A stretch of DNA of 64,000 nucleotides from contig NC_065545.1 in assembly GCF_932294415.1 (NCBI RefSeq), positions 22,367,357 through 22,431,356 on the forward strand. The letters are read 5' to 3'. This DNA comes from Quercus robur. Lineage: Eukaryota > Streptophyta > Magnoliopsida > Fagales > Fagaceae. The position numbers and the translations under genes were made by a program. Within the stretch, counting starts at the first letter, position 1; every line of letters starts with the position of its first letter. The notes beneath the pieces are model-generated. The model was not told the origin of the DNA and searched no databases. It saw only the letters and a list, made by a program, of their open reading frames with translations. This document shows, in pieces, positions 6,931-56,091 of this stretch.

Positions 6931-6932
6931 AT

Positions 6933-6950
6933 TGGCGCCGTCTGTGGGGA
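6933..6950 (+). promoter_or_regulatory. Element 1 primer-binding site
   Basis: TGGCGCCGTCTGTGGGGA starts 3 bases after the 5' LTR. It begins TGG, the complement of a tRNA CCA end. The same motif, with one change, occurs on the minus strand beside the 5' LTR of element 2. I do not assign the tRNA. Confidence 0.85.
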
Positions 6951-6999
6951 GGAATACTTGGGTGTTAGCGAGCTCAACGTTCAACCATGGCAGGTTCAA

Positions 7000-9460: not shown

Positions 9461-10530
9461 CCTCGACACCCATCCAAAGAACATGCAGAAGCTATCAGGG
9501 AAGAGGTGACGAAGCTTAAAAAGGCAGGGGCTATCAAGGAGGTCTAATACCGTAGTAGTGAAGAAGAAGAGCGGGAAGTGGCAAGTATGTGTGGATTTCA
9601 CAGATTTGAATAAGGCCTGCCCAAAAGATCCCTTCCCTATGCCTTAAATAGACCAATTGGTAGATGCAACGGTAGGCCATCCTCGGATGAGCTTCTTAGA
9701 CGCCTTTCAAGGATATCATCAAATACCATTCGCCTTGGACGATCAAGAAAAAACAGTGTTTGTCACTCCCACTGGAAACTACCACTATAAGGTGATGCCA
9801 TTCGGCTTAAAGAAAGCAGGGTCAACCTATCAAAGGATGATGACAAGAATGTTTGAACCCCAATTGGGCAAAAGCATTGAGGTCTACATAGATGACATGG
9901 TGGTGAAAAGTAAGGTGGTGTCCAAGCACATTACAGACCTCGGGGGCATCTTTGAAATCCTGAGGAAACATAGGTTGCACCTAAATGCTTCCAAGTGCTC
10001 TTTTGGTATCGGATCAGGCAAGTTCCTGGGATACATAATGACTCACCGGGGTATTGAGGTCAACCCCAATCAAATCAAAGCCATTAATAGTAGGCCATCC
10101 TCAGATGCAACGGTAGGCCATCCTCGGATGAGCTTCTTAGATGCCTTTCAAGGATATCATCAAATACCATTCGCCTTGGACGATCAAGAAAAAACAGTGT
10201 TTGTCACTCCCACTGGAAACTACCACTATAAGGTGATGTCATTCGGCTTAAAGAACGCAGGGTCAACCTATCAAAGGATGATGACAAGAATGTTTAAACC
10301 CTAGTTGGGCAAAAACATTGAGGTCTACATAGACGAAATGGTGGTGAAAAGTAAGGTGGTGTCCAAGCACGTTACAGACCTCGGGGCATCTTTGAAATCC
10401 TGAGGAAACATAGGTTGCGCCTAAACGCTTCCAAGTGCTCGTTTAGTATCGGATCAAGCAAGTTCCTGGGATACATAATGACTCACCGGGGTATTGAGGT
10501 CAACCCCGATCAAATCAAAGCCATTAACAG
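9460..10530 (+). pseudogene. Element 1 reverse transcriptase with an in-frame 441-bp duplication
   Basis: RT motifs are clear: [13 protein letters not shown] near 9590, MSFLDAFQGYHQI near 9690, PFGLKKAGSTYQRMM near 9800 and the catalytic YIDDM near 9890. A second copy of the palm region starts at 10104, exactly 441 bp (147 codons) after the same point at 9663. In the second copy the catalytic box reads YIDEM and there are stops near 10302 and 10402. The first copy is open from 9657 to 10304. The duplication alone would prevent a normal RT fold. Confidence 0.85.
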
Positions 10531-11030
10531 TTTACAACCACCCCAGAAGCCCAAAGAGGTCCAGAAGCTTATAGGAATGGCTGCCACCCTGAACCGGTTT
10601 ATTTCTCGGTCGGCGGATAGGTGCAGACCTTTCTTCCTTTTGATGAAAATGTGGAAAGGATTTGAATGAACTGAAGAGTGTGCGTTGGCTTTCCAACAAC
10701 TTAAAGAATACCTATCGCGGCCACCTATCATGTCTAGTCCTGAGGTGGATGAGGTCCTATTCGCATACATCGCCATGGCCCCTCACACTGTAAGTTTGGT
10801 ATTGCTACGAGTTGATAATGGCGTACAACGGCCAGTTTACTATGTAAGCAAATCACTACACGAGGCCGAGGTTCGGTATTTACCACTAGAAAAAGGTCGT
10901 CTTGGAGGTGGTGCTTGGCACACGAAAGCTTCCCCATTACTTCTAAACGCATACAGTTGTCATCCTGACTCAGCTCCCACTCAAAACTATACTTCGAAGT
11001 GCTAATTACACAAGGAGGATTGTTAAATGG
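10530..11030 (+). pseudogene. Element 1 RNase H domain (broken)
   Basis: Connection and RNase H part of pol. It shows LIGMAATLNRFISRSADRCRPFF (read in two parts, about 10570-10640), then RPVYYVSKSLHEAEVRYLPLEK near 10830. A stop at about 10667 and frame changes near 10890 interrupt it. Confidence 0.7.
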
Positions 11031-11063
11031 GGCACAATCCTAGGAGTTTTTGATATCAATTAC

Positions 11064-11669
11064 ATGCCTCGTACCTCTGTCAAGGGCCAGGTCCTCGCGG
11101 ACCTAGTGGCCAAGTTCGCCGAACCCCCATTAGAAGAAGTGACAGAAGCACAACACATGGATGGAAAATCGGTTGGCATGATTTCCCAGCAGGATCCACT
11201 ATCCTGGAAAGTGTACGTTGATGGCGCAGCAAACCAAAAGGGGTCCGAGGTAGGATTAGTACTAAAATCCCCCAAGAAAATCACTATTGAGAAGTCACTA
11301 AGACTGGGATTCTCGGCCACAAATAACGAGGCTGAGTATGAGGCCCTGCTAATGGGAATGACCATGGTTCAGAAAATGAGCGAGAAGGCGATAGAGATGT
11401 TCTCGGACTCAAGATTAGTCGTTGGCCAAGTAAAAGGAGAATTTGAGGCGAGGGACGAAAGAATGCAAAGGTACTTAAGTCAGGTGGGACACCTACAGTC
11501 AGGATTCGAATCTTTCAACTTGTTGCACTTCCCCAGAAGTGGAAACACCCATGCTGACTCCCTGGCCATGCTTGCTACCTCCTCGATACAAGGTCTTCCT
11601 CGGGTCATCCTTGTGGAAGATTTGTACAAACCAGCAGGGGTCGAGAAAGAAATGATCCATGTTCACTAA
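11064..11669 (+). pseudogene. Element 1 second (archaeal-type) RNase H
   Basis: An open segment of 201 codons with WKVYVDGAAN (11207-11236), NNEAEYEALLMG near 11325-11360 and FSDSRLVVGQ near 11400-11430. These are the D, E and D acidic positions of an RNase HI fold. A second RNase H placed between the pol RNase H and integrase is a mark of Tat-type plant elements. The frame ends in a stop at 11667-11669. Confidence 0.8.
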
Positions 11670-11675
11670 GTCAGG

Positions 11676-12926
11676 GTGGGGCCTAGCTGGATGGACCCCA
11701 TAATATCATTCTTGAAGGACGACATCCTGCTTGAGGAAAAATCAGAAGCAATAAAGGTGCGTAGGAAGGCTCCTCGATTCTGGCTGTCTGAGGACCAAAA
11801 GTTATACAAACGCTCATTTTCTAGGCCCTACTTGTTGTGCATACACCCTAAAGCAACAGAATTACTGCTAGAAGAGCTACACGAGGGGATCTATGGGAGC
11901 CACACTGGAGGTAGATCTTTGGCACACAAGGTCATCACTCAAAACTACCGGTGGCCAAAAATGCAAAAGGAAACACAGGAATACGTAAAGAAATGCGATC
12001 AATGTCAAAGGTTCGCGCCAAACATGCATCAACCGGGAGGAGTCCTTAATCCTCTATCCAGCCCTTGGTCGTTTGTGCACTAGGGCTTAGACATCGTAGG
12101 CCCTTTCCCCAAAGCAGCAGGGAACAAGAGATACCTACTAGTCGGCACAGACTACTTCACCAAATGGGTAGAAGTTGAGCCCTTGGCAAACATCAGGGAT
12201 GTGGATGCCAAGAAGTTTGTATGGAAAAAAATTGTCACCCGATTCGGAGTCCCTCATACCCTCATCTTGGACAACGGCCTTCAATTCAATAGCAAATCTT
12301 TCAGGAGATACTGCTGTGACTTGGGAATCAAGAACAGATACTTTACCCCAGCCTATCCCCAAGGGAATGGTCAAGCCGAGGCCATTAACAAGGTCATAGT
12401 GACTGGACTCAAGAAGAGATTAGACAATGCTAAGGGAAAATGGGTAGAAGAACTGCCACATGTCCTCTGGGCATACTGAACCACACCTCGCAGATCCACT
12501 GGGGAAACTCCCTTTTCGATGACATATGGCGCCGAGGCAGTTATTCCTCTAGAGAACGGCTTCCCTACACTAAGGACTAGCTCTTTCAATATGAGCAATA
12601 ATAGTGAATTACTATAAAAGAGTTTAGACTTTATTGAAGAAAGAAGGGAGAACACAATGGTTCAATTGGCATACTACCAACACAAGCTCAAGCAAGGTTA
12701 CGATGCCAACTTGAAGCTAAGGCCATTAGCTCCGGGTGACTTGGTATTAAGAAAGGTCCTAAGTACTGCAAAGAGCCCAGCATGGGGAAAGCTAAGGCCT
12801 AATTGGGAAGGACCGTACTGCATCACCTTAATGGCTGGTATAGGAGCGTATTTCTTAGAAGACTTAGATAAGTATGTAATACCACACTCTTGGAATGTAA
12901 ACAACCTGAAAAGTTACTATTATTAA
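11676..12926 (+). pseudogene. Element 1 integrase (broken)
   Basis: The zinc-binding part is intact: HEGIYGSH then CDQCQRF (about 11880-12012). The core follows with LDIVGPF, LILDNGLQF and a GQAEAINK box, the DDE triad. Stops at 12081-12083 (just before the core) and 12477-12479 split it. A C-terminal part follows at 12657-12926 with PRKVL-like and NWEGPYCI segments. Confidence 0.82.
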
Positions 12927-12974
12927 TGAAAGCTTTCTTTCAATACGTCCATTCATTGTATAAGTGCGTTGTTC

Positions 12975-13335
12975 TTCCTTTATAAGTGTTTAAACAGAAC
13001 CTTAGTCATGTCTGAAGTCCTCGGACCAAATGCTTTGGGGAAATTAATACACTATTACATTTTTTACAAGTGTTTAAACAGAACCTTAGTCATGCCTGAA
13101 GTCCTCAAACCAGATGCTTTGGGGAAATTAATACACTATTACATTTTTTACAAGTGTTTAAACAGAACCTTAGTCATGCCTGTCCTCGAACCAGATGCTT
13201 TAGGGAAATTTACTATTACGTTTTTTACAAGTGTTTAAACAGAACCTTAGTCGTGCCTGAAGTCCTCAAACCAGATGCTTTGGGAAAATTAATACACTAT
13301 TACATTTTTTATAAGTGTTTAAATAGAACGCTATT
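12975..13335 (+). repeat. Element 1 tandem array (~84 bp x ~5)
   Basis: GTGTTTAAACAGAAC recurs near 12985, 13070, 13154, 13231 and 13314. Units are about 84 bp, with one shorter unit of about 77 bp. The array lies between the end of pol and the end of the antisense gene. Confidence 0.85.
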
Positions 13336-13642
13336 GTATCAAGAGATGTGGTCAACTCGTATATGGCTGGTACTCAATTAGATCGGCCCAATAGTTACTA
13401 ACGTATTGTTATCTGTTTTTAAGTATAAGGTAGCAATGACACAACGCTATTCATGATGGTGATAATCCTCAAAACATATAAAATAAAAGTGCAAGGGATT
13501 TCTGAGATAATAAAAAAAAAATTAAATTAAAAAAAAAAAAAGAGAAAGAAAGAAAGACATTTCTATTAAATAAGATGAGTACATTATATTCAGATAAAGT
13601 GTCACCACAAAATCCCTAAGTACTACAAAAAGTTCCTAAGTT

Positions 13643-16204
13643 CTAAGCCTTCGCCCTAGGAGTAGGAGGATCTTCTTGCTGGCCTAGTTGAGAGGAAGGA
13701 GCATCCTTGGCCTTATTACTAACTTCCTTAGTCCTAGCCTCTACTTCTTTTGCCTTAGCTGCAGCAGACTTGCCCTTGGCGGCATCTTTGACTTTGGAGG
13801 GGGACTTTTTCTCCTTACCCTTGCCCTGATCTTTGGGCCCCTCGACCCCTTGTAATTGGTCACCGGTCAGGCTAGATCCCTGAGGAACCTAGGGAAGAAG
13901 GATTGCAGCTTGAGTAGTCAAATGCTGCTCCAAAGACTCAGGGGCAAGGGTAGAAGGAAGTGGAAGGCCGCTCGAGATCGCACGGATATCAGGGTGGTAA
14001 AAGGTCTTTCCCTGCTGCCTCCACTCTGAGTCTGCATGAACTCTTGCAATGTTAAAGGTTTCAACCCATGTGGCATCTTAGTATTCTGTACATGCCTCAG
14101 CTAGCTCCTCAGTTAGCCAGGCTTGTGTCTCCTCTACGCCAAGGGTATAGGCTGCTTACTTCTCGGCCTCCAATGCCTCCTTTGCTAGCTAAGCTGCCTC
14201 TTTGGCCTTCTGTAGCTCCGCCTTCAGATCCAGCACAAGTTGCTTAGAAGTGGCTAGCTCTATCTTTGTTTGATAAAGAAATTTACGCTGATCCTCGACT
14301 TAAGTCTCAGCATTCTTTAGGCCAGCCAGGGCGCTATTCCGATCCCTCTCCGAGGCGATTAGCTTGGTGGCTAGATCTTTATTCTCCTCCTTTACGGCCC
14401 CCAAATCCTTCTCGACATCAAGATGAGGGTTAGCCTCATGCCTGGCATCATTCCTAGCTCTGTTGACCCACTCCTTGGCCACATAAACCTCTTGGATAAT
14501 CTGCATAAGAACAATAATGTCATCCCTTGCAAACAGACGAGAACAAAATCTGCATACTAGTGCTAAAGTAAATAAAAAGGACGAGAATTTGGACTTACCA
14601 GAGCAAGGTCCCTTTTTAGGGACAGGAAAAGGTCGTGCTGCTTCAGCTTCCTCAAGGCCTCCATATCCTTGGGCAGGAGAAGTGGCTGCTCCAAGGACTC
14701 AGCCACATGCGCGAAATGACCTCTCTGATACTCCCTAACAGAGGCATTCCACGGAATCACAGCCCCGTCAACCTCTAGTCGAGGCGACCACACACGCTAT
14801 GCTAGGCGCACCTCGGTCTAGTTCTGCTCTTTTCGGCTGTCCACAGATGAGGACCTCTTATCCTTTGGATCCTTAGCAGTCTTTTGCTGTTTCGTACCCT
14901 TCTGAAGGGGCAACTCTCCCTCCTCAATCTCTTGCAACGGCCTTTTCTTCTTTAGGTCTCTCATCGCGTGCAGGCCTAGATCGGTAGGGAGAGGAGTGGG
15001 AGGGGGAGGAAGAGTTGCAGGAACTTGGGATTTGGGTACTTCTTATGAAGTTACCCCCTTGTACCTGAAGGCCATGTAGTCTCACAGGCTTCTCCTCTAA
15101 TTTAAGGCCATTTCTTCTTCCTCGGATTCAAAGTCAATCTGAGTAACCACCAAACTCGGAGTGTTGGCTACCAAAAGCCTGTCAATATCGGCCTTGGACT
15201 CCGAGAGTATTATTGGCCCGCCTGAAGCTTCACCTTCGTCCTCAAGGCGAAACTGGTCTATCTCGGCCGAGAGGGACAAGTGTGCAGAATTTGTCCCTTC
15301 TCTTGGAGCAATTACCTCCTGGGGAACACGCTAGATGGGCAACTGGACGGGTGGAAGATCTCCCCGAGCAAGAAATCCTGGCTTAGAGACGTCTATCCGA
15401 TTCAATCGAGGATCACCAACCTTTATTGCTTGACCTACGTCCTGGAATATACGAGATAGAGGCTCGTAGTCCAAAATTAAAGGAGCAGCCCGTAGTTGTC
15501 CATCCTCGCTTATGAATACCTCAGATCTCAGCAGTTTGTTAAGGGCCAGTACGTTCACCAGACTTAGCCTAGAAGCAATGTGGTTTTTGTCTGCAAAAAA
15601 ATCATCCGAGAAAGAAACGTTGGTTAGGACAACAAAACTATCATCCGAGAAGACAGAATATCAAGGAAACTAAACTGCGGGACCTAATCCTAATGCACCC
15701 CACCTGGATCCCTCTCCCAAGTTGGGCAGTGAAGACCGCCATGCCACTCCCCGAAGACTAGGAGGTAATTGTCCTTCATACCCTTGTTTGACTTGGAAAG
15801 GCACGATATCAGTCTGACGATGTCAGACCGGGACCTTAGGTAATACCCGTACCGGCAAGCTTATGGCACTCGTATAGGTGGACCACATCAAGCCACGTAA
15901 GCCCCAAGCCCATTTGCTTGTTAAGAGCATCTACACAACCCAATACCCTAAAGAGGTTGAGGGCGCACTGGTAAGGAGTCAGCCTGTGGTTAATGAGGTA
16001 GTCCTTAGTTACCCTACCCATGGGTAGTGTCATTCCTCCCTCCAAGAAGGCAATCATCGGAATGATAACCTCACCTACTTCTCTATCAGTAAGAATTCGG
16101 TCTGGGGCACAATATTGCAGGGCTACTCCCTGCAGAATACGGTACTTGGCCCTGAAACCCTCCATAGCGGCTGGGGAGTCTACTAAGTACTTGAACCTAC
16201 CCAT
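13643..16204 (-). pseudogene. Element 1 antisense gene, decayed (gypsy-type transposon domain plus charged tail)
   Basis: Read on the strand opposite to gag-pol. The first segment, complement(15836..16204), opens MGRFKYLVDSP and carries the region CALNLFRVLGCVD, similar in pattern to the domain in the antisense gene of element 2. A one-base loss near 15850 shifts the frame, after which YYLRSRSDIVRLISCL continues. Further pieces lie at 15331-15558, 15097-15279, 14599-14793 and 14300-14500. The last is heptad-like (EENKDLATKLIASERDRNSA), and the gene ends at about 13643 in a Lys/Ala-rich tail. A GT-AG intron is visible (donor at 14597-14598, acceptor just above 14500), and another in the leader (16205-16304). 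Family name PF04195-like is from memory; function unknown. Confidence 0.7.
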
Positions 16205-16407
16205 CTAAGTAAACACAAGGGGCACTAAAAAGTCTTTCGAAAGAAAAAAGAGCCGAGGAGGCCAGCCGAGGAGAAAACAGTCTGAGGAAGAAGTGAAAAC
16301 TTACGAAAAACGAATGAGCGATACTGCAGAGAGTTCGAGAGAAGTTGAAAGTTCTTGAAAATTTGAAAGCTTTTGCAAAATGAGGAGAGAGAAGTCCTTC
16401 AGGTGCC

Positions 16408-16414
16408 TTTTATA
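16408..16414 (-). promoter_or_regulatory. TATA box of the element 1 antisense gene
   Basis: CTATAAAAGGC on the minus strand, about 205 bp upstream of the antisense ATG, and outside the LTR. The leader between them has no ATG and contains a likely intron (16205-16304), with the acceptor TTACTTAG abutting the start codon. Confidence 0.55.
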
Positions 16415-16674
16415 GGGGGGAGAGATTAAATGAGAGTTATCTCACTCGAACTTTGAAGAAAAAGGTCCACCGTTGGATATGCGCCTCACCATCAAATTTG
16501 GGGAACAAGGCGTCGCCTGGAGCAATCAATAACGCCTTGCGAACTTCGAAAAAAACAGCAGCAATTATAAGGCACATTAAACTATACTCCCACACGTGTA
16601 AATCAAGGGATCAACTGACTTCATCTTTTGGGAATCAAAATCCCACCTTTTCTCCTCGGATAAGAGGGAAAAAC

Positions 16675-16693
16675 CAGGATTTTGAGGGGCTAT
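16675..16693 (+). promoter_or_regulatory. Element 1 polypurine tract
   Basis: The purine-rich segment TTTTGAGGGGCTATT precedes the 3' LTR start (TGTGAGG at 16694), the place where plus-strand priming is expected. Confidence 0.6.
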
Positions 16694-17461
16694 TGTGAGG
16701 ATAAGGCCCAGAATGACATGTTGGGCCTTGGGCCTTTGTTTAGGAACACTAGATAGTCCGAGGAGAAGCAAGCAAATATCAGAAGCCTCCAGTGAAAGTC
16801 TTATAAATGAGGAACGAACGGAAGGTGATCCAAAGAGGAACTCCTCCTCAAATATGATGAATGAAGCTCAAGCATGCATTCCAGCAACTAAGGTAATCCT
16901 CTAAAAAGCTCCAGCAATAGGAACGTGTCTCATGAACGTACAAGAAGGAAGAAAACTCAAAATATCTAAGGGAAAGTTGCTACCACCGCATTAAATGCAC
17001 TATAGCTACTTTTCTGGCCACATTTATGTGGAGAAGACCTCTAAACAGTGCTGCCTTGGCAAAAGCAACTCACAGAAAGCCAAAGAGGGTGTCTGATGGG
17101 ATAGGTACTCAGGTAAAGGCTCAGATGATCAATAAGTGTAGGATCAAGATAGTCTAGTGAGGGCTATATAACGTGAAAGACCCTCCTTGAAAGGGGGAGG
17201 GAAAAAACTGTAAACAAAATCTGTAATAAAGTTTTAAGAGCTAATATTCAAGAATCAGTGTTCTCGGACCAATCCGAAAGCGTTATTCCTTAACCAACTC
17301 CTTTTATCTTTCTCTTTTTAAGCATCAAAATCTATTTTTCTGTTATCTGGTTCACGAAGGCCCAGTTTTCCAACCCATTCTCTACAAATTTATTGTTTTG
17401 GGCTGTTTTGTGCCTAAGTCCATATACCCGTTGGGTTAGGAGTCCAAACCAAGTCCTTACA
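16694..17461 (+). repeat. Element 1, 3' LTR
   Basis: 768 bp, TGTGAGGATAAGG to CCTTACA. Differs from the 5' LTR at about 29 positions in the first 390 bp by eye, mostly transitions. The hairpin arms present in the 5' LTR have lost pairing here through G-to-A changes. Confidence 0.93.
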
Positions 17462-26031: not shown

Positions 26032-26508
26032 TGATGGAACACAAGTCCGTCAGTGAGTGAGCAGATGGAATCACTCGTGGAATGTGAAGATTTGCTCGAC
26101 GAAGGACACCGGTGTGGCGCCTGCCACAAAGTCTCCGATGCCAAAGTTAGGATCACAATTAAACACAATAAAGGAATCAAAGATAGTTTCAGAGTATTTT
26201 TGCATATATATTCTTCTGTTGGTTGTATGAAAGTTTTATACCTGAAACTTTAAGGGCTAGCCGTTGAGGCTGTTAATGCCTTCTTTTGTAACGCACCTGG
26301 TCAGTAATGAGACTTTTAAGAGGCTCTTCAACGGTCTGCTTGGTCGATTTGGTAACTGCTCGGATCATTGATTGACTGCATTGAATAACTCCCTGCCTTC
26401 GTCAATGATGATGGCTTTCTTCGTTGTTTCTGATTACCTCGTCATGGATGACTCTCCCGTCCATACTGTTATCTTCGTCAGTGGGATGTAGAGTCGTCAT
26501 TCCCGTCA
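26032..26508 (-). repeat. Element 2, 3' LTR
   Basis: 477 bp. Differs from the copy at 35324-35800 at three positions, all transitions. Confidence 0.95.
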
Positions 26509-26524
26509 GTTGCCCCCCAAGTTC
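26509..26524 (-). promoter_or_regulatory. Element 2 polypurine tract
   Basis: GAACTTGGGGGGCAAC on the minus strand directly abuts the 3' LTR. Confidence 0.75.
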
Positions 26525-26716
26525 TGGGGTCGTCGGTGACCCGTCATGACGATCACAGAAGGTGAAAAGTTTTTCTTGTGACTCTTGGGGTTTTGTTCCG
26601 CTTTTAATGCTTAGTGGCGGCGCTACACGCAATCATGGCCACGTGGCGCTTGATGGTCTGTGGAATTAATGGCATGGCCCTTGGGTTTCCCGCTGGTTTT
26701 TCAATCGTTTTTGGGC

Positions 26717-26726
26717 CCATATTTAA
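26717..26726 (+). promoter_or_regulatory. Possible TATA box of the element 2 antisense gene
   Basis: CATATTTAAAAC on the plus strand near 26717-26728, within the element but outside the LTR. A possible leader intron follows (donor GGAG/GTATG at 26865-26866, acceptor TTTCAG at 26988). The ATG at 27232 is about 500 bp downstream before splicing. Confidence 0.4.
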
Positions 26727-27231
26727 AACTTCTCCTTTTCAATTTTTCGTCTATTTCTCAGAGAGCAAAAACCAACCAATTTTTTAGTGATACTCTGAGC
26801 ACTTTGAGACTTCTTTTCTTCTCCGATTTGCCTTACGCTGTGCTTCTGCCGTTCTGCCATTGGAGGTATGTTTTTCTTTCCTTTTTCTTTCTTCTTTTTC
26901 TTCTTTTACTGTAGCATAATTACTGATTTGCTATTCCCTTTCGTTTCTATTCTGGTGTTGGTTTTTGTTCTTCTTTTGGGGGTTTCAGTTTCGTACTTTG
27001 TTTTTCTGCCTTTCGATTTCTGTATTGTCCATGGTTGATAGCTTGGAGGTTAGGATAGCTTGCCCGTCGATCTCCTTCCTTTTTGCGCATCTAGGGGGGT
27101 CTTTGGGTACTTACCCTTTTTTAGAAAATTTTGTGTACGAGGGCAATAGTCTGAGCGTCGTTTTGAGTGAATTGTTGCCTTTGCTCCGTCAATCACTGAA
27201 TTGGTTTGAGGGTTTAGGAGGGAGAGGATTA

Positions 27232-29212
27232 ATGTCTGAGGTTAGGTCTAGTGACCTCGAGACTGGGCTATCGTCCAGTGGTGGCCCGGCTGAAGGAGAT
27301 ACAGCCGTCTCTGGTTCTCGAGAGGTTAGGGTTTTTTATGCCCTTAGGGAGATTTGTGGTCTGGATGACGAGACCGTGAATAGATTTAAGGATAGGTTTC
27401 AATTTCCGTCTAGGGTTCGTGTCCGTCGTCCTAGGGAAGAAGATAGGGCTTGTCACTTCTTTCCAGGCGAAATATGCTTTTACGAGTCAGCCTTCACCTG
27501 TGGGCTTAGGTTCCCCATCCACCCGTTCCTGATGGAACTTTTAGATCATTTTGGTATAGCCCCTGGACAGCTCATGCCAAACTCGTGGAGGATCGTCATC
27601 AACTGTATGCAAATATGGTTGGCCTCTAACGGGGATATGATCAGGATAGGTGAGCTCACCTACCTGTATCGTTTGAAAGAGTCTAAGGAGTGGGGGTATT
27701 ATGAATTAGTCCCTTGGGAGAGAAAGATTAGGATCGTCAAGGGATTGCCCTCGTCATTCAGGTATTGGAAGTCGCGCTTTTTCTTTGTGTCTGGGGACGA
27801 CTTCGAGACCCAATCTAGCCGTGATTGGGGTGATATCCCGAGGTTGCTCCGTCGGTGGGGAACCCCGACCTTAGGTGCGTCAGTATTTCTCCCCGTTGTT
27901 TCAATCTTGCCAATTTTGAAGTTCTGGTCTTGCTGACTTCTTTGTTTCTTCGTTTGGTGTAGTTAAGAGACGGCCTGGGCTGAAGAGACGATATAAGGAA
28001 CGCATAGAGACCGCCATCGGGTACGCTGAGACGATTGAGAGCTGGGACGAACTGGTTGACCCCAGGTCTCTTGCATTTTACAACCTTGGTCCTGACCCAT
28101 CTCCTTTCGTTCTTCGTCAGCTCGGCATTGAAGGCAAAAAGAGTAAGTTTCAACTTCGTCAATGCTGATTCTTCTTATGTATACTTAAGCAAATTTTTGA
28201 CATGCTTTCTTCTTGCAGAGATGACGACAAAATTCAACAAGGACATGTATGCAAAGATGAGGTCAAAGAAGGACGAGCCCCTGTCCAGTCTGGGAAAGAA
28301 GACTGTGCGAGTCACCGGCAAGGGTCCTGCCTCCATCCCCCTCAGCATCGTTCCTTCCATAGCTTCTGAGACGACGAGGACTGCTTCCCCGACCGTTTCA
28401 ATAGAAGAGCTTCCTACTCCCGGCTCCAAAAGGTCGCGCGTGTCTGGTAAAGGGAAGGAGAAGACGGGTACCCGTTCATCCACCATATGGGATGACGAGT
28501 CTCTGGCCGTGGAAAGAGCTCACGAGGTTGTTACTTCATCGGACTTGAAGGCTCTCTCTGACCTATCCTTAAACGATGTGGCCTCTCGTCACGTCCACAA
28601 ACTTGTCCAGGTGTGGGGTTCTTCTCTCTTTATCATCATTTTTTTTTTTTTTTTTTTTTTATAGACGACCTCATGATTCCCTTCCAGGTGCTGGGAGAAA
28701 GTCTCCATATCACTGCTGAGTACCTCACTCAAGGGGCCAAGGTGGCGTCTTTGGTAACCCGGATGGAGGCTTTGGAGAAGGAGAACTCCGACCTGAGGAC
28801 GAACCTGATCACTTCCATGGACGAGGCAACGACGTTGAAGGAGAAGGTCAAGGTGTTGGAGGACGACCTCAGAGTTGAGCGCGGTTTGACTCTCGAGAAG
28901 GACGAGCAGCTTCAGGCAGCCAAGGAGAAACTGGTGACCATCACTGCTCGATCTGTGGAGGCTTTCCAGACTACTGACGAGTACAACACCGTGCTCTTCA
29001 GTTGGTATTTTAAAGGTTTTGAGCTTCTCCGGAGGTACATGATCAAGCATCCTTCTGGAGTCAACCTGGAGAGCCTGGATTTGGAGGAAGTGGACAAGGA
29101 GATGGCTCTGGAGGAGGCGGCTTCGTCTTCTGCTCCTGGTGATGATGCTCCCGATGATGCTCCCGAGCTTGTTGCTGACGTGCCGGCCAGTGAAGGCACA
29201 GCTGATGCTTGA
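27232..29212 (+). CDS. Element 2 antisense gene, intact: gypsy-type transposon domain with coiled coil
   Basis: Lies opposite to gag-pol and converges on it. Four exons join in phase: 27232..27874, 27963..28142, 28219..28610, 28688..29212, giving 579 residues with no internal stop. All introns are GT-AG, 76-88 bp. The start MSEVRSSDLE is chosen as the likely family start; the frame is open upstream to 26965. Residues ~35-230 form a globular domain (for example FPIHPFLMELLDHFG, WGYYELVPW) that I recognise as the plant 'putative gypsy type transposon' family (PF04195-like). Exon 3 encodes a basic, Ser/Thr-rich linker (KRSRVSGKGKEK), perhaps nuclear-targeting. Exon 4 is strongly heptad-like (LEKENSDLRT, LEDDLRVERG), then an acidic Ala/Pro tail. 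Role unknown. Antisense ORFs are known in some Tat elements. Confidence 0.75.
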
Positions 29213-29524
29213 CTCTTTTTACTTAGGAAAAATTTTTTGTTTTATTGTGGGTGCCCGTCTGGTTTTGGGCCTTTCTTTTTGTAAATCTAATTCCAAAACA
29301 ATTTACTTTATTTTGAAAACAATGATATTGGCCCAGTGTTTATGGGCTGGAATGAAGGGTACTTACTTTTCTCCTTGAGGTTCTGGCTGATTTACATCCG
29401 TCCGTACTTTTTGTGCTTTGTTAATTAGTTGTTGATTCAATGCACTGTGCTCTTTCGTCAACTGACTTCTGCCATTTGACTTATGCCCGTTCAGGCGGAC
29501 TCCTGTCACTTGATCTTTTAACCT

Positions 29525-29980
29525 CATTATTATTGTCGTCAGTAACTTACATCCGTCAAGGCGGAATCTTGTTAGTCTTTTAACCATAGTATTATGGTCG
29601 TCGGTAACTTACATCCGTCAAGGCGGAATCTTGTTACTTAGTCTTTTGACCACAGTATTATGGTCGTCGGTAACTTACATCCGTCAAAGCGGAATCTTGT
29701 TACTTATTCTTTTAATCATAGTATTATGGTCGTCGGTAACTTACATCCGTCAAAGCGGAATCTTGTTACTTAGTCTTTTAACCGTAGTATTATGGTCGTC
29801 GGTAACTTACATCCGTCAAAGCGGAATCTTGTTACTTAGTCTTTTAACCGTAGTATTATGGTCGTCGGTAACTTACATCCGTCAAAGCGGAATCTTGTTA
29901 CTTAGTCTTTTAACCATAGTATTATGGTCGTCGGTAACTTACATCCGTCAAGGCGGAATCTTGTTACTTAGTGATTTATA
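29525..29980 (+). repeat. Element 2 tandem array (66 bp x 7)
   Basis: TAACTTACATCCGTCAA recurs at about 29543, 29605, 29671, 29737, 29803, 29869 and 29935. The period is 66 bp (first step 62). Being a multiple of three it leaves an open frame of 22-residue repeats at 29631-29981, which I regard as a by-product. The array sits between the antisense gene and the end of pol. Such 3'-UTR arrays in plant gypsy elements are known satellite sources. Confidence 0.92.
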
Positions 29981-30072
29981 GGCCTCATGGTCAACCTGTA
30001 CTGCCTGCGCAAAAACATTGAAGGAGTAATATTTTTATTAACTTCAGTAACGAGTGCATTCGTGTATTACAT

Positions 30073-33000
30073 TTACTCATGGTATTTCTTTAAATGCTCA
30101 ATGTTCCAAGGACGAGGGAGCTTTCGTCCATCCATAGTTTCCAGATGGTAACTCCCTTGCCTAGAGTAGTGAACGACGCGATATGGCCCTTCCCATGTAG
30201 GGCCCAGCTTCCCTTGAGTAGGATCTTTAGTAGCTATAGTGACTTTGCGAAGGACGAGGTCCCCTATGGCCAGACGCCTGAGTTTGACCCTCTTATTGTA
30301 ATATTCTGCCATTTTCTTTTGATACTTTGTCATTCTACTGGACGCATTGTCTCTTACTTCATCCAAGCAATCCAAGTTGAACCGCAACCCCTCGTCATTG
30401 AGTCCCTCTCTGAAAGCTCCTCGCCTGATGCTTGTTACTCCAACTTCTACTGGGATCACTGCTTCTGCGCCGTAGGTAAGCCTGAAGGGTGTCTCTCCTG
30501 TCGGGGTTCTGGCTGTAGTCCTGTATGCCCATAAGACACTAGGCAGTTCTTCTGGCCAGGCACCTTTTGCTTCGTCCAGCTTGGTTTTGATTATCTTGAG
30601 CAACGTCCTGTTTGTTACTTCCGTCTGTCCATTTGCCTGGGGGTGTCCCGGGGATGAGAACTGATTCTTGATCCCGAGGTCCGAGCAGAACTCTCTGAAG
30701 CCTTGGTTGTCGAACTGCTTCCCATTATCAGATATGATCGTCAAAGGGATCCCGAACCTGCAGATTATGTTTTTCCACACGAAGCTCCGGATCCGAGCCT
30801 CAGTGATGGTTGCTAGGGCCTCTACTTCAACCCATTTTGTGAAATAATCAATAGCAACTAGAAGGAATTTTACCTGACCTTTACCTTGGGGCAGAGGACC
30901 GACGATGTCGATTCCCCATTGCGCGAATGGCCATGGGGAGGATATGGTCGTCATCTTCTCTGCTGGAAGCCGTTGTACATTCCCGTACCGCTGGCATCTG
31001 TCGCATCTTCTGACGAGGTCAGCGGCATCCCCCTGCATGGTTGGCCAAAAGTACCCCGCTCTTATTACCTTGTTTACTAGGGATCTGGGGCCGGCATAGT
31101 CGCCACAGACTCCTCCGTGTACTTCTTCTAGGATGTATTTGGCCTCATCCTCGTCGACGCACTTTAGGTAAGGCATAGAGAAGCCTCTCTTGTACAATAC
31201 GTCATTTAGGATCGTGAACCTGGCCGCTCTCTTTTTGACCTTTCTGGCTTCGTCAGTATTCTGAGGTAAGTGTCCGTCTCGGAGGAAGGATATTAAGGGC
31301 GTCATCCAAGTGTTTGTGCTCTGGGTGGTGAGTACTGCCACCTCTTCAATACTTGGGTATTTCTGAATTTCTATTGCCACGTCTGTGCTCGTCATTCCTG
31401 CTTCTGACGACGCTAGCTTCGACACTTCGTCAGCTTCTATATTCTGGTTTCTTGGTATCTGGACGAAATCCACTGTGTCGAACTCCTGAGTTAGTTGCCT
31501 CGTTAGTTTAAGGTATTTCTGCATCCTTTCTTCCTTTGCCTCGTACTCTCCACTGATCTGTCCGATTACTAGCTTTGAATCACTCTGGACCAGCAAACTT
31601 TTGGCACCAAGAGCTTTTCCAAGCCTCAAGCCCGTCAATATTCCTTCATATTCGGCTTCGTTATTGGTGGCTGGGAATTCCAGTTGAACTCCATATTTCA
31701 TCACTTCTCCGTCGGGGGTAGTTATGACGACCCCTACTCCCCCCCTCTTTTGGGCTGACGAACCATTCGTCTGTATTGTCCATTTATCAACTTCGTCTGT
31801 AGTTTCGTTCTCGTCTGGAAGAGTGAATTCAGCGATGAAGTCAGCCAGAGCTTGTGCCTTGATAGCTGCTCTCGGATGGTATTCGATGTCAAATTGGCTG
31901 AGTTCGATTGCCCATTAGACCATTCTCCCTGCTGCTTCCGGTTTGTTCATTGATTTCTTAATTGGCTGATCCATCATCACGAGGATAGGATTTGACTGGA
32001 AATACGGCCTGAGTTTGCGCGAGGCTACTATAAGCGCGAACGCAATCTTTTCGATCCTTGGGTACCTGAACTCAGCTCCTTGAAAGGCTTGACTGACGTA
32101 GTACACTGGGAGTTGCTTCTTGCCTTCTTCTCTAATCAAGGCTGCGCTTACTGCCGAGGCTGACACCGCCAAGTACAAGTATAGGTTCTCCCCTCCTTTG
32201 GACGGGCTCAGGAGAGGCGGACTGCTCAGGTATCGCTTCAGCTCTTGGAACGCTGCTTCGCATTCATCAGTCCAAGCAAAAGCCTGCTTGAGGGTTTTGA
32301 AAAAGGGCAGGCATTTGTCTGTGGCCCTAGAGACGAACCTATTTAGAGCTGCTATCCTGCCTGTAAGTTTTTGTACATCCTTGACGGTCTTGGGTGGGGC
32401 CATGTCAATGATAGCTTGTACTTTTTCTAGATTGGCTTCTATTCCTCTCTGGGACACCATGAATCCCAAGAATTTTCCCGAGGCTACCCCAAAAACACAT
32501 TTGTTTGGATTCAACTTCATCTGGTGTTTTCTCAGTGTTGCGAAAGTCTCCTCCAGGTCGTCCAGATGAGCGAGCTCTTCCTTACTCTTGACGAGCATAT
32601 CGTCTACGTATACCTCCATGTTTCTGCCAATTTGTTGGTTGAACATTTTGTTTACCATCCTCTGATATATAGCTCCAGCATTTTTCAACCCAAAAGGCAT
32701 CACCTTGTAACAATAGAGTCCCTGGCTGGTGATGAAGGCGGTCTTCTCCTGGTCTTCTTCAGCCATCTTTATCTGGTTGTACCCTGAGAAGGCGTCCATG
32801 AATGTCAATAACTTGTGTCCAGCGGTAGAGTCCACGAGCTGGTCTATCCTTGGTAGAGGGAAGCTGTCCTTTGGGCATGCTTTATTCAGGTCGGTGAAGT
32901 CTACACACATTCTCCACTTTCCATTTGGTTTCTTTACCAGGACGACGTTGGCGAGCCATTCTGGGTAGTATACCTCCCGGATGAACCCAGCCGTCAAGAG

Positions 33001-35247
33001 TTTGGTTACCTCCTCTGCTACTGCCTGATCTCGCTCTGGAGCGAAAGTTCTTCGTCGTTGCTGAACGGGCTTCCTGTTGGGGTCCACATTCAGTCGATGC
33101 TGGATGATCTCTGGAGATATGCCTGGCATGTCCTCGTGACTCCATGCAAAGACATCAAGATTCCCTTTAAGGAACTTTATGAGTCTCGCTCTCATCTCAG
33201 GGCTTAGCGTCGTCCCTATCCTGGTTGTCCTGTCCGCATTTCCTTCTACCAATTCCACTGCTTCCAGGACCTCCACTCCGTCTTCCTCTTTTTCTTCTAT
33301 CGTCCACGTGTGGTTCTCCTTTCTGGCCAATACGGCCTGGTAGCACTCCCTTGCCAGGACCTGATCACCCTTCACTTCTCCCACACCATCGTCTGTTGGG
33401 AATTTCACCTTCAAACAGTAAGTTGACGTTGCTGCCTTCCACTTGTTTAGGGTAGGCCGCCCAATGATGACATTGTAGGACGAGGGGCAATCTACAACCA
33501 GGAAATCTACTTGTTTGGTCAGCTGCAACGGATAGGTCCCTGCTGTCACCGTCAGAGTTACTATACCCCTGGGGTAGACCCTGTCTCCACTGAAACTGAC
33601 AAGCGGAGAGTCGAATGGACGAAGCCTTTTTGGATCTAACTTCAACTGCTGGAAGGCTGGGAGGTAGATGATATCCGCTGAGCTCCCGTTATCAACAAGG
33701 ATCCTTCTGGTAGTGAACCCTTCTATATTCAGCACTATGACCAGGGGATCATTGTGAGGCTGCTTCACTCCCCTGGCGTCTCCTTCATTAAAGGACATAT
33801 CTTGGTATGTTCGTTGGTACTTGGACGGAGGAATGGCGTGGACGCTATTTACCTGTCTGTGGTATGCTTTTCTAAGTGATCTGAATGACCCTCCTGAGAT
33901 CGGTCCTCCCGTGATCGTGTTTATCTCCCCGATCACTTTGCGTGGAGGTTGGGACGTATGGTCGTCATCCCGAGTGAAGGATTCATTTTGGGTCCTGTTG
34001 TCGTCTCTGAACTTGCTGTATTCTCCTTTCTGTACATATTTCTGCAACTTTCCTTTCCGTATTAACTCTTCTATTTGTTCCTTCAGGTCTCTGCAATCTT
34101 CTGTGTTGTGGCCGTGGTCTTTGTGGAACCGGCAATACTTGTTCTTGTCACGTACGTTGGGGGACGAGTGTAATGGCCTGGGCCATTTGAGATAATGCTC
34201 GTCCTTGATCTGCGTGAAAATCTTGTCAACAGGCATAACCAAAGGAGTAAATTTTACCTGACGAGGATTTTTGTCATCTCTCCTTCTATTCCCGTCACTG
34301 TTCCGACGTTCTGGTCTGTCTCTCTTTTGCCCTCTGCGGTCGTCTTCCCTCTTGAACTTGTCTCCTAGCCTCTCGGTATCTTTTATGGCAGCTAGAGCGT
34401 CTTCCGCGTTCATGTATTTTTGGGCCTTCAGGAGCATCTCAGCCATTGTCTTCGGGGGGTTTTTGGCAAGAGAGGCTACAAGGTCTCTGGATTTCAACCC
34501 TGCCTTGAAGGTCGTCAGTTGTACCTTGTCATCAGCTTCGTCCACCTCCAGAGTTTCCCGGGTGAATCGCTTGACATATGACCTCAAAGTCTCCTTCTCT
34601 CCCTGTCTTATGGTGAGTAAGTAATCTACTGGTCTCCTTGGGCGTTGTCCCCCTATGAAGTGACGCAGGAAAGCACTACTTAGCTGATCGAAGTTGTCTA
34701 TGGACGAGTTTGGCAACTTAGTAAACCACTCTCTTGCAGCTCCTTTGAGGGTCGTAGGGAAGGAACGACACAATATCTCGTCAGGTGGTTGCTGAAGGCC
34801 CAGAGTCGTCTTAAAGGTATTAAGATGATCCTGAGGGTCCTTGAGTCCGTCGAATGGTTCTAATTGAGGCAGGCGAAACTTTGACGGCACGGGGCAATCA
34901 AGTACCGCAGCAATCAAGGGCGAATCTGTAGCCCTTACCATCTTGTCTACACTCCGGTCTATCTTTTCCTTGATAGCGCTCCTTAGTTCGTCCATTTCTT
35001 TCCTCATTTCTCGAAGAAGATCTGAGTTCTGTTCGTCCGGAGTAGTTGGTCTCCGGGGGGTTTCCCTCTGTTGGCTATCCCCCTCTCCCTCCGTGTTACC
35101 CTTGGACCGGTTTTCTTCCTGTTGAGCTTGTTGAACCTGTTGGAGCCGCAGCTTCATTTCCTGGTTCTGTCGGGTGAGTTCCTCAATGGTAGCTGCCAGG
35201 GCTTGAACTTGCTGGGCCAAGGTCGTTGAATCTGGGTTGGATTCCAT
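30073..35247 (-). pseudogene. Element 2 gag-pol polyprotein, one in-frame stop
   Basis: One frame of 1725 codons on the minus strand, broken only by TAA at 31915-31917. The first part (1110 residues) has a coiled-coil start (~10-45), gag core (~125-245), zinc-knuckle-like [14 protein letters not shown] (372-385), protease DNGSSAD (519-525), RT with [11 protein letters not shown] and YVDD (880-883), and RNase H (from ~985). The stop falls at its C-terminal end, just after GRMV. The frame continues with the second RNase H: the first acidic position reads TNGSS rather than the DGA seen in element 1 (near 31770). Integrase follows: HGGVCGDY then CDRCQRY, then DDE as D-59-D-35-E (GIDIVGP, ISDNG, QTEV). 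The second zinc His is Tyr here; element 1 has His. Confidence 0.93.
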
Positions 35248-35302
35248 CTGGATATGGTGAATTGAAGGAAACTACGTTTTCGAATGTAAATCTGAAAACT
35301 CG

Positions 35303-35320
35303 TTCCCACAGACGGCGCCA
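35303..35320 (-). promoter_or_regulatory. Element 2 primer-binding site
   Basis: TGGCGCCGTCTGTGGGAA on the minus strand, 3 bases inside the 5' LTR. It differs from the element 1 site only in the next-to-last base. Confidence 0.88.
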
Positions 35321-35323
35321 AAC

Positions 35324-35800
35324 TGATGGAACACAAGTCCGTCAGTGAGTGAGCAGATGGAATCACTCGTGGAATGTGAAGATTTGCTCGACGAAGGACA
35401 CCGGTGTGGCGCCTGCCACAAAGTCTCCGATGCCAAAGTTAGGATCACAATTAAACACAATAAAGGAATCAAAGATAGTTTCAGAGTATTTTTGCATATA
35501 TATTCTTCTGTTGGTTGTATGAAAGTTTTATACCTGAAGCTTTAAGGGCTAGCCGTTGAGGCTGTTAATGCCTTCTTTTGTAACGCACCTGGTCAGTAAT
35601 GAGACTTTTAAGAGGCTCTTCAACGGTCTGCTTGGTCGATTTGGTAACTGCTCGGATCATTGATTGACTGCATTGAATAACTCCCTGCCTTCGTCAGTGA
35701 TGATGGCTTTCTTCGTTGTTTCTGATTACCTCGTCATGGATGACTCTCTCGTCCATACTGTTATCTTCGTCAGTGGGATGTAGAGTCGTCATTCCCGTCA
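35324..35800 (-). repeat. Element 2, 5' LTR
   Basis: 477 bp. The start of the LTR on the minus strand (35800 downward) holds several TGACG motifs within about 110 bp, the core site of TGA-type bZIP factors. Confidence 0.95.
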
Positions 35801-40036: not shown

Positions 40037-40815
40037 TGTAGGGGTGAGAGCCCAAGATCGTATATTGGGCCTTAGGCTTTGTCCGAAGACATTGATAGGT
40101 CCAAAGATGAGCAAATAATTATTAGATATTCTCAGTTAAAGTCTCATAAGTAGGGAACAAATGAAAGATTGTCCAAGGAGGAACTCCTCCTCGGACATGA
40201 TGAATATAGTTCAAAATATGTACTCCAACAATTAGAGTGATCCTCCAAGAAGCTCCAATGATAGGGATATGCCCCATGAACATACGAGAATGAAGGAAAT
40301 CTAAAAATATCTAAGGGAAAGCTGTCACTACCACATTAAATGCACTGTAGCTACTTTTCTGGCCGCATTTATGTGGAGAAGACCTCTGAACAGTGCTATC
40401 TTGGCTACCACAACTCACAAAAAACCAGAAAGGGTGTCTGATGGGACATGTACTCAAGTAAGGGCTCAGATGATCAACAGATGTAGGATGAAGATGGTCC
40501 AAAGAAGAATATATAATGTGAAAGACTCTTCATGAAGGGGAGACCGGGAAAAATAGAGAAAAAAAAACTGTAGCAATCTAAGTTATCTTTGTATCCATTT
40601 GTGATTAATTTATACAAGGGGGATCTCCTCGGACTGAAAATATATTAAGATCAAATCTCTTATCTGTGTTTGACAGTCATTCAAATTAAATCTATTCATT
40701 GTTCAATTCATTAGGGCTTAGTTCTTCAACCCACTCTCTACAAATTTATTGTATTGGGTTCATTAGGCCAACGTCTCATACGTTTTGGGCTTGGACTGTA
40801 TATCGAGACCCTACA
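40037..40815 (+). repeat. Solo LTR related to element 1
   Basis: About 779 bp starting TGTAGGGGTGAGAGCCC and ending GACCCTACA. Flanks AAAGT and AAAGC agree at 4 of 5 bases. It aligns along its length with the element 1 LTRs, including the hairpin GGAGGAACTCCTCCTCGGA and the CGCATTTATGTGGAGAAGAC block. No internal region adjoins it, so it probably arose by LTR-LTR recombination. Confidence 0.8.
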
Positions 40816-46091: not shown

Positions 46092-49000
46092 TCAAATTTT
46101 CTGTAGAAGTATTTGTGCTCTATGTTGAAGTTCAGTCGGGAAGCTGGCACCAGTGCTCTCCGGAGACTTGTTGCAACTAAAATTTTCTGTAATGTCTATA
46201 AACTTTCTGACAAATTCTACCATTTCCCCAATCCAACTTTGATTATTCAAGTTATCTTCAAATGTCTTCAGGTGTTTACCATATGTAGTCTCAAATTCTC
46301 TGGACTTAGCAGCAGCTTTTTGAAGTACAGATTCGGGAAGTCCTGAAATAAATAATAGTAACTGGACTTCATGACAAAGCAGTAATAATTACACCCAGTA
46401 ACAAAATGGCAATCAATAAGAGGAGTTTTAGGCAAAATCTCTTTTGGTAATTAGTATTAGGCAAAGCCTTCATAAACAAAAACTGATAATTTGCAGGGGT
46501 AAGCATTTTTTTTTTCCAAGTAGTTGTAAGGAGGGCATGAGGCCTATAAACGAGTTCTCATCTTTACCGTAAAAGTACCCTTAAGTCTTAACTCCTATAG
46601 TAGTAGCTTTGAAAAGCATAAAGGACATGGAAGCAAAGAGATCATTCCCAAAAAAAATGAGTTTCTTAACCATGCTACCATATCCACCTAATGAGCTTCT
46701 TAACTAAGGTAGCACATAAGTAATACCCTCAGGCCCAGGTCCTTATCTCTGAAAGCCTAATCGTTGTTAACAGTCTAAAATCACATAAACCAAATCATTG
46801 TACCTCAGCTACGTTTCTTCTGGTTAATGAAGAGAGCTTCTCAACAAAGAGGCAATAATACAAAAAGAATCTTACCAGCTAACCGTGCAACATTAACACC
46901 ATAGCTTTTAGGGCATGCACCAGGTGTCAACCTATAAAGAAATGTAACTTCTTCCACATCTCCAACTCCATTCCCAACTCGGCATCCCATATGACAAAGC
47001 AAAACCTATTCCAAACATGAAGAAGAACAAATTAAACAATGTTCAGAATATTTGTGCCCATTGGTAGTGCGCCAATATCATGGCCTTTATGTCTAAACCA
47101 TGATGAATCTAATGTAAACTATGATACCATTATATATGGTTATCACATGGCCAATCATGCTAAAAACTCATTTGTCTTGTTTTTTGAAGATTAAGAAGAT
47201 ACCCTTAGCTTGTGAATCAAAAGCATCTGTGATGAAATAGAAAAATAACAGAAAAAGCAGAGGTATACCTTAGGATCATTCTGATAGTCTACAGCTAATC
47301 GGTGATAGTGAGTAGAAAACATTCCTCGACACTGCACCTTGTGGACAAAATGTTGTAGAACTGATTCACTGCAATGGATAGAGAACCAAAGTAGAAACAA
47401 AGGTCAACCAGATACAACCTTCAGAGAAAAGGAAAATTTGTAGAGAATTGATCATTAATATTGAATTCACTGAAAGACAAGTTAATCCAATAATTTACAC
47501 ATACGCAATCGCTTGCCCATCTGAAGTTGATGTTCCACGTCCAAGTTCATCCAATGCCACCAATGAATTACGAGTTGCAGAAGACTGCATCAAGTCATCA
47601 AGTCATCAACCATCAAAAATATGTCAATGGCATGAAAATTATTCGATCATATTCATCTTAACTCATAAAATTTACATTTGCAAACTATTCTTTAAAAGTT
47701 CTAAAGCATAATGATCAAACAAGAGTGAGTTTTTCTTATGCAAGAAGAAACTTCTCATGAGATGAGATACGGGACAAATATGCAAGAATAATAAAATTTC
47801 GAATGTAACTGAGGAAATTCTTAGTATGACTCAACATAAAGTAAATGCGGAGAAATTTGTGATAGGCTTGTCCTTTGACAGTTAAGATCTAATTAATTAT
47901 GCTAAAAATCAGAACCAATATGGGCAGACTAATCAATTTGTACATACTCAAGAACGTTGTCTTTGATTCTACAAATAATCTATAAAATCACAGGCATAAC
48001 AATAGTGTGCAATGAAAATCCTTTGATCCACTGACAAATCTCACCAGCATTAATGCAGTTTCTGAGAGTTCAGTTAAAAATGTACTTTGGCCTGCCATGA
48101 TATGATCTTTGGCACCCATCCGAACAAAGATTCGGTCCACAGGTGACAACTCAAAACTGTCTGCAGGGACATCTGCTCCTACCTGAAAAGAACCTTTAAG
48201 GTGAAAACCACAAAATAATAAAACTCAGAGTTGCACAACAAAAACCACAAAAACATTACCTGGGCCAAAATCACAGCCAAGCAAACTTGGCGAAGAAGAG
48301 TTGATTTCCCCCCCATGTTAGGACCAGTGAGAAGGATGAAGCTAGGATGACCAGAACCACCAATCATAATTTCATTGGGAACAAAGGTACCCTTGCCTAA
48401 AGAATCACTTCTAAGAACAGGATGTCCTAAACTTTTTGCAGAAAAGCACGGCACTTCATCCGAACTTGATGAGTCTAATATAATTGGTCGGCTTGTTGGC
48501 CCTTCATAATATTCACTTGCAATTGCTAGACTGATCAAAACATCCAACTCTGCAACATGTACCAATTTTAGCCATAGAAAATGAAATACATTTTGTATAA
48601 TGTAAACTACTATATAATGTTGTTCTTTTGTTCATGAAAACATGAAATCTGACAATATGCCAGATAACTTAGTAACAAAATAAAATTCCAAGACATAAAG
48701 TTAAATTTTGAGATACCATAGAAGCAGACATTAAAAATCCATCATGATCTGAAGATCTACTACCATTATTACCCCAAAAGAGGACTATGACAATGTGACA
48801 TTTCCCCAAAAGAGAACTATGACCTTGTGACATCTCCACTCTTCTATATGCACAATCACACTTGTTTGCATGTATGTTTGAGTGTATCTGAAAGAGAAAA
48901 AGAGAAGGGTATGCATACCTGCAGTAGCAGAAACTAATTGCCTCCACTTATTATGATGCTCACAGAAACGTCCAATCAACCTCTGAAGAATGCTTTTCAG

Positions 49001-50507: not shown

Positions 50508-50541
<34 letters not shown>

Positions 50542-55972: not shown

Positions 55973-56091
55973 TGTGATTTGAATGAAAAATGCGTTTGAT
56001 GAGAGAGTGTGAGAAATGAGAAGAAGAAAGTGAAAACAAAAAAAGAAAAAGGTGAGTTTAGATTATAGAAATTCGGGAGTGTGAGTTTGGG

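Follow-up and report, generated by a model that had tools for sequence, protein, structure and literature searches.

A Retand-type Ty3/gypsy retrotransposon of Quercus robur appears to carry a real multi-exon accessory gene, placed antisense in the spacer between pol and the 3' LTR and predicted to encode a protein with a PF04195 (TRP28) domain, a basic linker, a coiled coil and an acidic tail. We give this reading a probability of about 0.8. At the level of the DNA, we show a gene model, splice sites that have been retained across copies and strong selection on the protein over successive rounds of copying. The features concerned are collected in table 1, with positions counted along the 64,000-nucleotide stretch analysed here (the window).

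Table 1. Features of the young element and of the older related element in the window.
Feature	Position	Strand	Remarks
3' LTR of Ty3/gypsy element	26032..26508	-	477 bp; direct repeat of 35324-35800
Probable 5' leader intron of antisense gene	26866..26988	+	GT...AG; GT and AG in 21/21 rows
Probable N-terminal extension of exon 1	27031..27231	+	67 codons, ATG in CCATGG; from ATG conservation, N/S and L071
Coding exon 1, as first reported	27232..27874	+	holds PF04195 (TRP28), residues 81-122 of 579-aa reading
Intron 1	27875..27962	+	88 bp, phase 1, GT-AG
Coding exon 2	27963..28142	+	in-phase join
Intron 2	28143..28218	+	76 bp, phase 1, GT-AG
Coding exon 3	28219..28610	+	part of basic linker; in-phase join
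Intron 3	28611..28687	+	77 bp, phase 0, GT-AG
Coding exon 4	28688..29212	+	long helices (coiled coil), acidic tail, stop codon; in-phase join
Tandem array	29495..29972	.	66-bp unit, 7.3 copies; between antisense gene and pol
gag-pol, sense	30073..35271	-	gag, RT, RNase H, additional RNase H, integrase; protease without Pfam assignment
5' LTR of Ty3/gypsy element	35324..35800	-	direct repeat of 26032-26508
Older related element	6162-17459	+	LTRs 93% alike
Decayed antisense gene of older element	13646..16204	-	pieces with frame breaks and stops; same place
Candidate intron, older element	15591-15703	-	phase 1, after TRP28 exon
Candidate intron, older element	14501-14598	-	phase 0, before coiled-coil exon

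The host element and the antisense gene model

The element lies on the minus strand and is flanked at both ends by the 5-bp duplication GTATT. Its two LTRs differ by 3 mismatches in 477 bp, all transitions, which, if LTRs acquire 7e-9 to 1.3e-8 substitutions per site per year, corresponds to an insertion age of approximately 0.24 to 0.45 million years. The gag-pol reading frame is broken by a single in-frame TAA (31915–31917), the stop in the sense polyprotein that an earlier reading of this DNA (the initial annotation) had pointed out. Gag-pol was searched as two separate pieces, and its Pfam matches are PF03732, PF00078, PF17917/PF17919, PF13456, PF17921 and PF00665. An additional RNase H (aRH) is present between the RNase H (RH) and the integrase (INT), with PF17917/PF17919 in the first pol piece and PF13456 (50–167) and PF00665 (329–425) in the second. 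A domain order with aRH between RH and INT is that of Ogre and Retand elements, and PF04195 is among the most prominent lineage-specific extra domains, occurring in 23% of Retand elements (PMC6317226). In the accessible text of a survey of Retand elements, an antisense PF04195 ORF is placed between pol and the 3' LTR in all but two of 63 clusters, with sizes of 315–1194 bp for the LTR, 7380–12869 bp for the internal region and 2933–6566 bp from POL to the 3' LTR (PMC11963269). The element studied here has the same layout, and its own sizes, taken by hand from the coordinates (LTR 477, internal 8815, POL–3' LTR 3564 bp), are inside these ranges. Both its domain order and its layout agree with placement in the Retand lineage (Tat clade) of Ty3/gypsy elements. 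Antisense TRP28 ORFs are known from Retand elements (PMC11963269); the initial annotation had mentioned antisense ORFs in some Tat elements.

The gene was first described as antisense to gag-pol, which is correct for its orientation; it does not overlap gag-pol but lies beside it, on the plus strand of the spacer between pol and the 3' LTR. The claim of four exons joined in phase to 579 codons (plus the stop) was confirmed, as were the GT-AG introns of 76–88 bp (88, 76 and 77 bp). To assess how unusual this is, up to three GT-AG introns of 60–150 bp were allowed and the openness of the stretch was compared with that of dinucleotide shuffles and of control stretches of the window. None of the 120 shuffles (maximum 1251 nt) and none of the 40 control stretches matched the 1740 coding nt, the best control being a 1566-nt reading in another element's pol region. 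The longest intronless ATG-to-stop reading on the plus strand of the antisense-gene stretch is at most 906 nt. Left to itself, the optimiser finds a reading in the real stretch that is longer than the gene model (2118 nt, with a start at 26868), so its choice of introns is not necessarily biological and the test speaks to openness alone.

The start at 27232 given in the initial annotation yields the in-frame 579-codon reading, but a conserved ATG upstream adds 67 codons. This ATG (27031) was found in 21 of 21 rows, namely the window copy and 20 of the 39 other copies described below; a stop interrupts the frame that follows in one copy, leaving it open in 20 of the 21. The shared variants of the extension comprise 12 synonymous and 4 missense changes versus 5.0 and 10.6 expected (N/S 0.15), and a diverged relative, L071, has the 67-codon extension as well. 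Because the ATG is kept, the frame is open and the extension itself is constrained, the true start is probably 27031 rather than 27232, giving a protein of 646 aa. A leader intron upstream of it is likely: scored with a plant splice matrix, its donor is at the 99.9th percentile and its acceptor at the 93rd, and both sites are kept in the same set of 21 rows. A strand test based on codon usage was uninformative, giving no preference for the plus strand in the extension, exon 1 or exon 3.

Selection on the protein across copies

Copies were collected by searching the 785.7 Mb genome with exon 1. Of 526 candidates the best 40 were taken, the window copy plus 39 more, all of them matching exon 1 over 643/643 bases; exons 2–4 played no part in the choice. 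Being the best exon 1 matches, the set leans towards young copies, with older, broken ones under-represented. All six splice dinucleotides are retained in 39/39 other copies, of which 27 have a gene that is intact over all 579 codons. The second pol piece, which holds the additional RNase H and the integrase (hereafter the integrase piece), is open in 23 of the 37 copies that cover it. L071 retains both ATGs and each of the six splice dinucleotides; over 617 codons aligned with the window gene (87 coding positions unaligned), amino-acid identity is 80%, with dN 0.107, dS 1.16 and dN/dS 0.09.

Variants were counted over the 40 rows with the window copy as reference, those whose rarer letter occurs in two or more rows being classed as shared. 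Among the shared variants of the antisense gene, 166 are synonymous, 44 missense and 1 nonsense, where the mutation spectrum predicts 69.8, 135.5 and 5.7 (relative N/S 0.13; exons 1 to 4: 0.12, 0.07, 0.16 and 0.15); the singletons number 84, 113 and 8 in these three classes (relative N/S 0.67; shared versus single, Fisher p=2.6e-15). For the integrase piece, scored in 38 rows (the window and 37 of the 39 copies, L089 and L092 being dropped since the fetched pieces did not cover it), N/S is 0.54 for singletons and 0.25 for shared variants, and the shared variants differ between the antisense gene and the integrase piece (p=2.9e-4). Constraint on the antisense gene is at least as strong as that on the integrase piece. 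The simplest reading of these sequence data is strong selection on the protein during spread of the family, then near-neutral decay after insertion.

The initial annotation had proposed dN/dS among copies as a check. Against the window copy it is far below 1: of the 39 copies, 26 have dS >0.1, and over these the median is 0.08 for the antisense gene and, in the 25 that have a value, 0.13 for the integrase piece. In closer copies the ratio scatters between 0.13 and 0.56, one of them lacking any synonymous change. When the commonest letter serves as reference, N/S in the other frames is 2.83 (+1), 3.72 (+2), 2.38 (-0) and 3.41 (-2). The phase-locked reverse frame alone is low (0.24), with 5 shared nonsense variants against 0 in the true frame.

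These counts bear on two alternatives. A neutral passenger or captured gene, functionless for the element, would account for the near-neutral singletons, whose N/S is as expected after insertion; it is refuted by the shared variants, the low median dN/dS, the universally kept splice sites and L071, short of a severe bias in alignment or sampling, and we consider it extremely improbable. It has also been proposed for such ORFs that the RNA has a role (PMC7264820), so that the antisense transcript itself would matter rather than the protein, by forming dsRNA or interfering with the sense RNA, and the antisense position near the 3' LTR would suit this. Amino-acid selection in every exon and the kept splice sites argue against a purely antisense-RNA role. 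As the sole function it is strongly disfavoured and, in our estimate, highly improbable; it could coexist with a role for the protein.

An intact gene in an otherwise crippled copy had been taken in the initial annotation as a sign that the gene is used or selected. The conclusion is supported by dN/dS; the argument is not, as neutral decay suffices. Considering substitutions only, the neutral probability of remaining intact at the age of the LTRs is 0.76–0.83 for the antisense gene and 0.48–0.59 for pol. The stop in the window's pol is present in 0/37 readable copies (two of the 39 are unreadable there) and looks private and late. Stops also fall at 12 other places in the integrase piece; two copies have one of these in common, and each of the rest is confined to a single copy. 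Since the neutral odds of intactness are high and the stop looks private, normal decay of an individual copy is enough to leave a broken pol next to an intact antisense gene, and such intactness was discarded as evidence of selection.

An older element with a decayed counterpart

The older related element carries its decayed antisense gene in the same place, and its two candidate introns match introns 1 and 3 of the young gene (at 27875 and 28611) in phase, at similar places; two matching phases would arise by chance alone about once in nine. For this second family, 150 rows were scored among 3853 candidates and 20 copies without a stop in exon 1 were picked. In these 20, the first candidate intron keeps its donor in 20 and its acceptor in 17, and the second in 16 and 13, respectively; exon 1 has a shared N/S of 0.37 with the commonest letter as reference. 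At the level of sequence, PF04195 gave no match in six pieces of the older antisense gene, the exon 1 pieces of the two elements align with an E value of 0.62 and the linkers have no similarity (636/1000 shuffles reach the score). The coiled-coil exons are weakly similar (1/1000 shuffles), and four TRP28 positions (G, P, L and N) are common to the two genes. The case for homology of the two genes comes from their place, the four shared TRP28 positions and the places and phases of the introns.

The older element also has a direct duplication in its RT region (9662–10091 and 10103–10531, 96% alike) and a 191-bp tandem duplication in gag (7951–8333), and a stretch at 40062–40572, approximately 78% alike to its LTR, is perhaps a solo LTR. 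Pieces of a host gene lie on the minus strand at 48179–56062, where MutS domain V is over the cut-off and MutS domain II and a PTM/DIR17-like Tudor domain are below it; the gene looks like MSH6.

Predicted product, family-specific words and possible functions

The product matches PF04195 (TRP28) with an E value of 1.5e-10 and 41.6 bits, above the curated cut-off of 26.2, covering profile positions 1–41 of 69. The conserved residues of PF04195 are G21, P25, L34, P46, N47 and F55 (PMC11963269); by hand, five of the six were located at the same spacing (G91, P95, L104, P116 and N117), with C125 replacing F. The Pfam search, suggested in the initial annotation, upheld its assignment to a plant gypsy-associated family; the folded state it assumed for the domain is not supported, the model of exon 1 (predicted together with the older element's piece) having a mean pLDDT of 34. 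The long coiled coil and the acidic tail that it described both gain support, the former from long predicted helices in exon 4 (mean pLDDT 68) and the latter from composition, with 16 D/E versus 2 K/R over 55 residues. A sequence search of the PDB with exon 1 found no relative, viral contigs held no relatives of exon 1 or of the RT–RNase H stretch and no enzyme domain in the product was over the Pfam cut-off. PF04195 itself is highly abundant in this genome, with 4148 candidates; all 150 matches that were scored exceed the cut-off.

By analogy with maize Grande gene23, reported as an antisense gene with its own promoter and a nuclear protein (PMC7264820), the gene would have a promoter of its own close to the 3' LTR, from which transcription starts. 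The transcript would be spliced and translated to a coiled-coil protein of approximately 646 aa, which, if it resembles the products of related antisense genes, may enter the nucleus and regulate its own element. The antisense orientation would let the gene retain its introns, because only the sense RNA is reverse-transcribed and the introns read CT...AC there and stay unspliced; the splice sites kept in every copy fit this explanation.

What the protein does for the element can be framed in several ways. Like the accessory proteins of retroviruses, it might assist steps of transposition, for instance by helping to bring the cDNA complex into the nucleus or by taking part in integration. The constraint, no weaker than that on the integrase piece, agrees with this, and a transposition-type role has been proposed and nuclear localization of the Grande protein reported (PMC7264820). 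The lack of an enzyme in Pfam and of a solved relative of exon 1 counts against it, neither strongly, and we hold the idea tentatively, as a possibility that falls well short of even odds.

A further lead concerns short words in the DNA. Across the element (26032–35800), from the LTR through the antisense gene and the array to pol, GACGA/TCGTC and CGTCA/TGACG are over-represented, in coding and non-coding parts alike. Among 512 words, CGTCA ranks 1 in the LTR, 3 in the antisense gene and 2 in pol, compared with 394 in the older element and 183 and 241 in the two flanks. Against synonymous-codon shuffles, which preserve protein and codon usage, GACGA/TCGTC ranks 1 of 467, 498 and 475 five-letter words in three separate coding pieces, where CGTCA/TGACG ranks 6, 2 and 2. 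The top word of a 942-nt host ORF used as a control scores 4.6 versus 4.6–5.9 for GACGA, and as comparable single scores arise in short controls we place weight on the recurrence of GACGA across pieces. In non-coding parts outside the array, GACGA occurs 11 times versus 1.7–2.3 expected and CGTCA 11 times versus 1.8–2.7, about four to six and a half times expectation. Both orientations are represented, with plus-strand counts of GACG and CGTC of 20 and 19 in the antisense gene and 32 and 45 in pol; the LTR is skewed (1 GACG versus 7 CGTC).

The word recurs across copies: GACGA ranks 1 or 2 in 39/39 antisense-gene pieces and 39/39 integrase-side pieces, and 1 in L071, which shares 20/36 of the word places. 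At L070, another PF04195 locus, GACGA ranks 3 and CGTCA 134. In the 20 second-family copies GACGA ranks 19–271, CCGAG 1–24 and CCTCG 1–128, and in the pooled coding pieces of that family CCTCG ranks 1 and CCGAG 2. The idea that the CG of the word is protected from decay was not supported, since the fully kept CG are 12/38 in GACG/CGTC versus 17/53 elsewhere, and 10/33 versus 12/46 and 6/12 versus 9/19 in two other pieces; mean CG retention is slightly higher for GACG/CGTC in two of the three pieces. Compared with other CG, third-position conservation of CGTCA is significant in the antisense gene (p=4e-5) and not in the integrase piece (p=0.33).

These observations raise the possibility that the protein is a sequence-specific DNA-binding factor for the word of its own family, countering host silencing or activating transcription in the manner of the VANC proteins. 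PF04195 is predicted to bind DNA (PMC11963269), and the top rank of GACGA in separate coding pieces, its enrichment in non-coding parts and its recurrence in all 39 copies, with different top words in the second family, are consistent with such a role. Against it stand the strand skew in the LTR, the similar single-word scores in short controls, the low rank of CGTCA at L070, the similar retention of CG inside and outside the word and third-position conservation that reaches significance in the antisense gene and not in the integrase piece; we consider a factor of this kind rather unlikely. The VANC21 motif is YAGTATTAY (PMC5735166), and it occurs six times in the array, 66 bp apart (29587–29925), with two more occurrences in the 64 kb. 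In a post hoc look, the motif stretch ranked 54 of 66 for conservation over 92 units, no better than the rest of the unit, which also counts against a VANC-like factor, and the motif was set aside as evidence. More specifically, each Retand family could have filled its DNA, including the coding parts, with a short word as a barcode, GACGA/CGTCA here and CCGAG/CCTCG in the older family, which its spliced coiled-coil TRP28 protein would read and thereby protect or activate its kin, a proposal by analogy that we regard as doubtful.

The nearest known counterparts of the gene are the Retand antisense TRP28 ORFs, which are alike in orientation, domain, place between pol and the 3' LTR and a tandem array in the spacer (PMC11963269). 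According to the accessible text, that survey identified ORFs with ORF Finder, whereas the reading here requires three coding introns, and protein selection and splice-site retention were measured. Grande gene23 is likewise an antisense gene between pol and the 3' LTR (PMC7264820), and Ogre is a Tat-clade element with a spliced intron whose expression uses splicing (PMC6317226). The VANC proteins of VANDAL elements resemble the present case as element-encoded proteins with family-specific short words and non-coding tandem repeats (PMC5735166, PMC10398659), and the dense family-specific word typical of such systems is seen here in GACGA/CGTCA, as compared with the flanks and the older element. 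VANDAL, however, is a DNA transposon, and here the enriched word also fills coding regions. HTLV-type retroviruses have antisense genes such as HBZ (PMC11963269), with an antisense promoter in the 3' LTR (PMC7264820) and a nuclear protein, a parallel of layout only.

Retand antisense ORFs are described as open reading frames of unknown function, and in the accessible survey text the word 'intron' occurs 0 times (PMC11963269). None of the titles and abstract openings found describes introns in such an ORF, most subscription papers being outside the search. A call to examine antisense and spliced transcripts has been made (PMC7264820), and the present gene suggests that ORF-only surveys can miss multi-exon versions of antisense genes. 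Antisense placement may be a way for a retrotransposon to keep an intron-bearing gene. Because constraint is at least that on the integrase piece and none of the copies compared has lost a splice site, the sequence comparisons suggest that the antisense product is needed for spread in this family. The family-specific word offers a testable candidate target for binding by the protein and, if the barcode proposal is true, word and protein together would be an LTR-retrotransposon counterpart of VANC anti-silencing systems.
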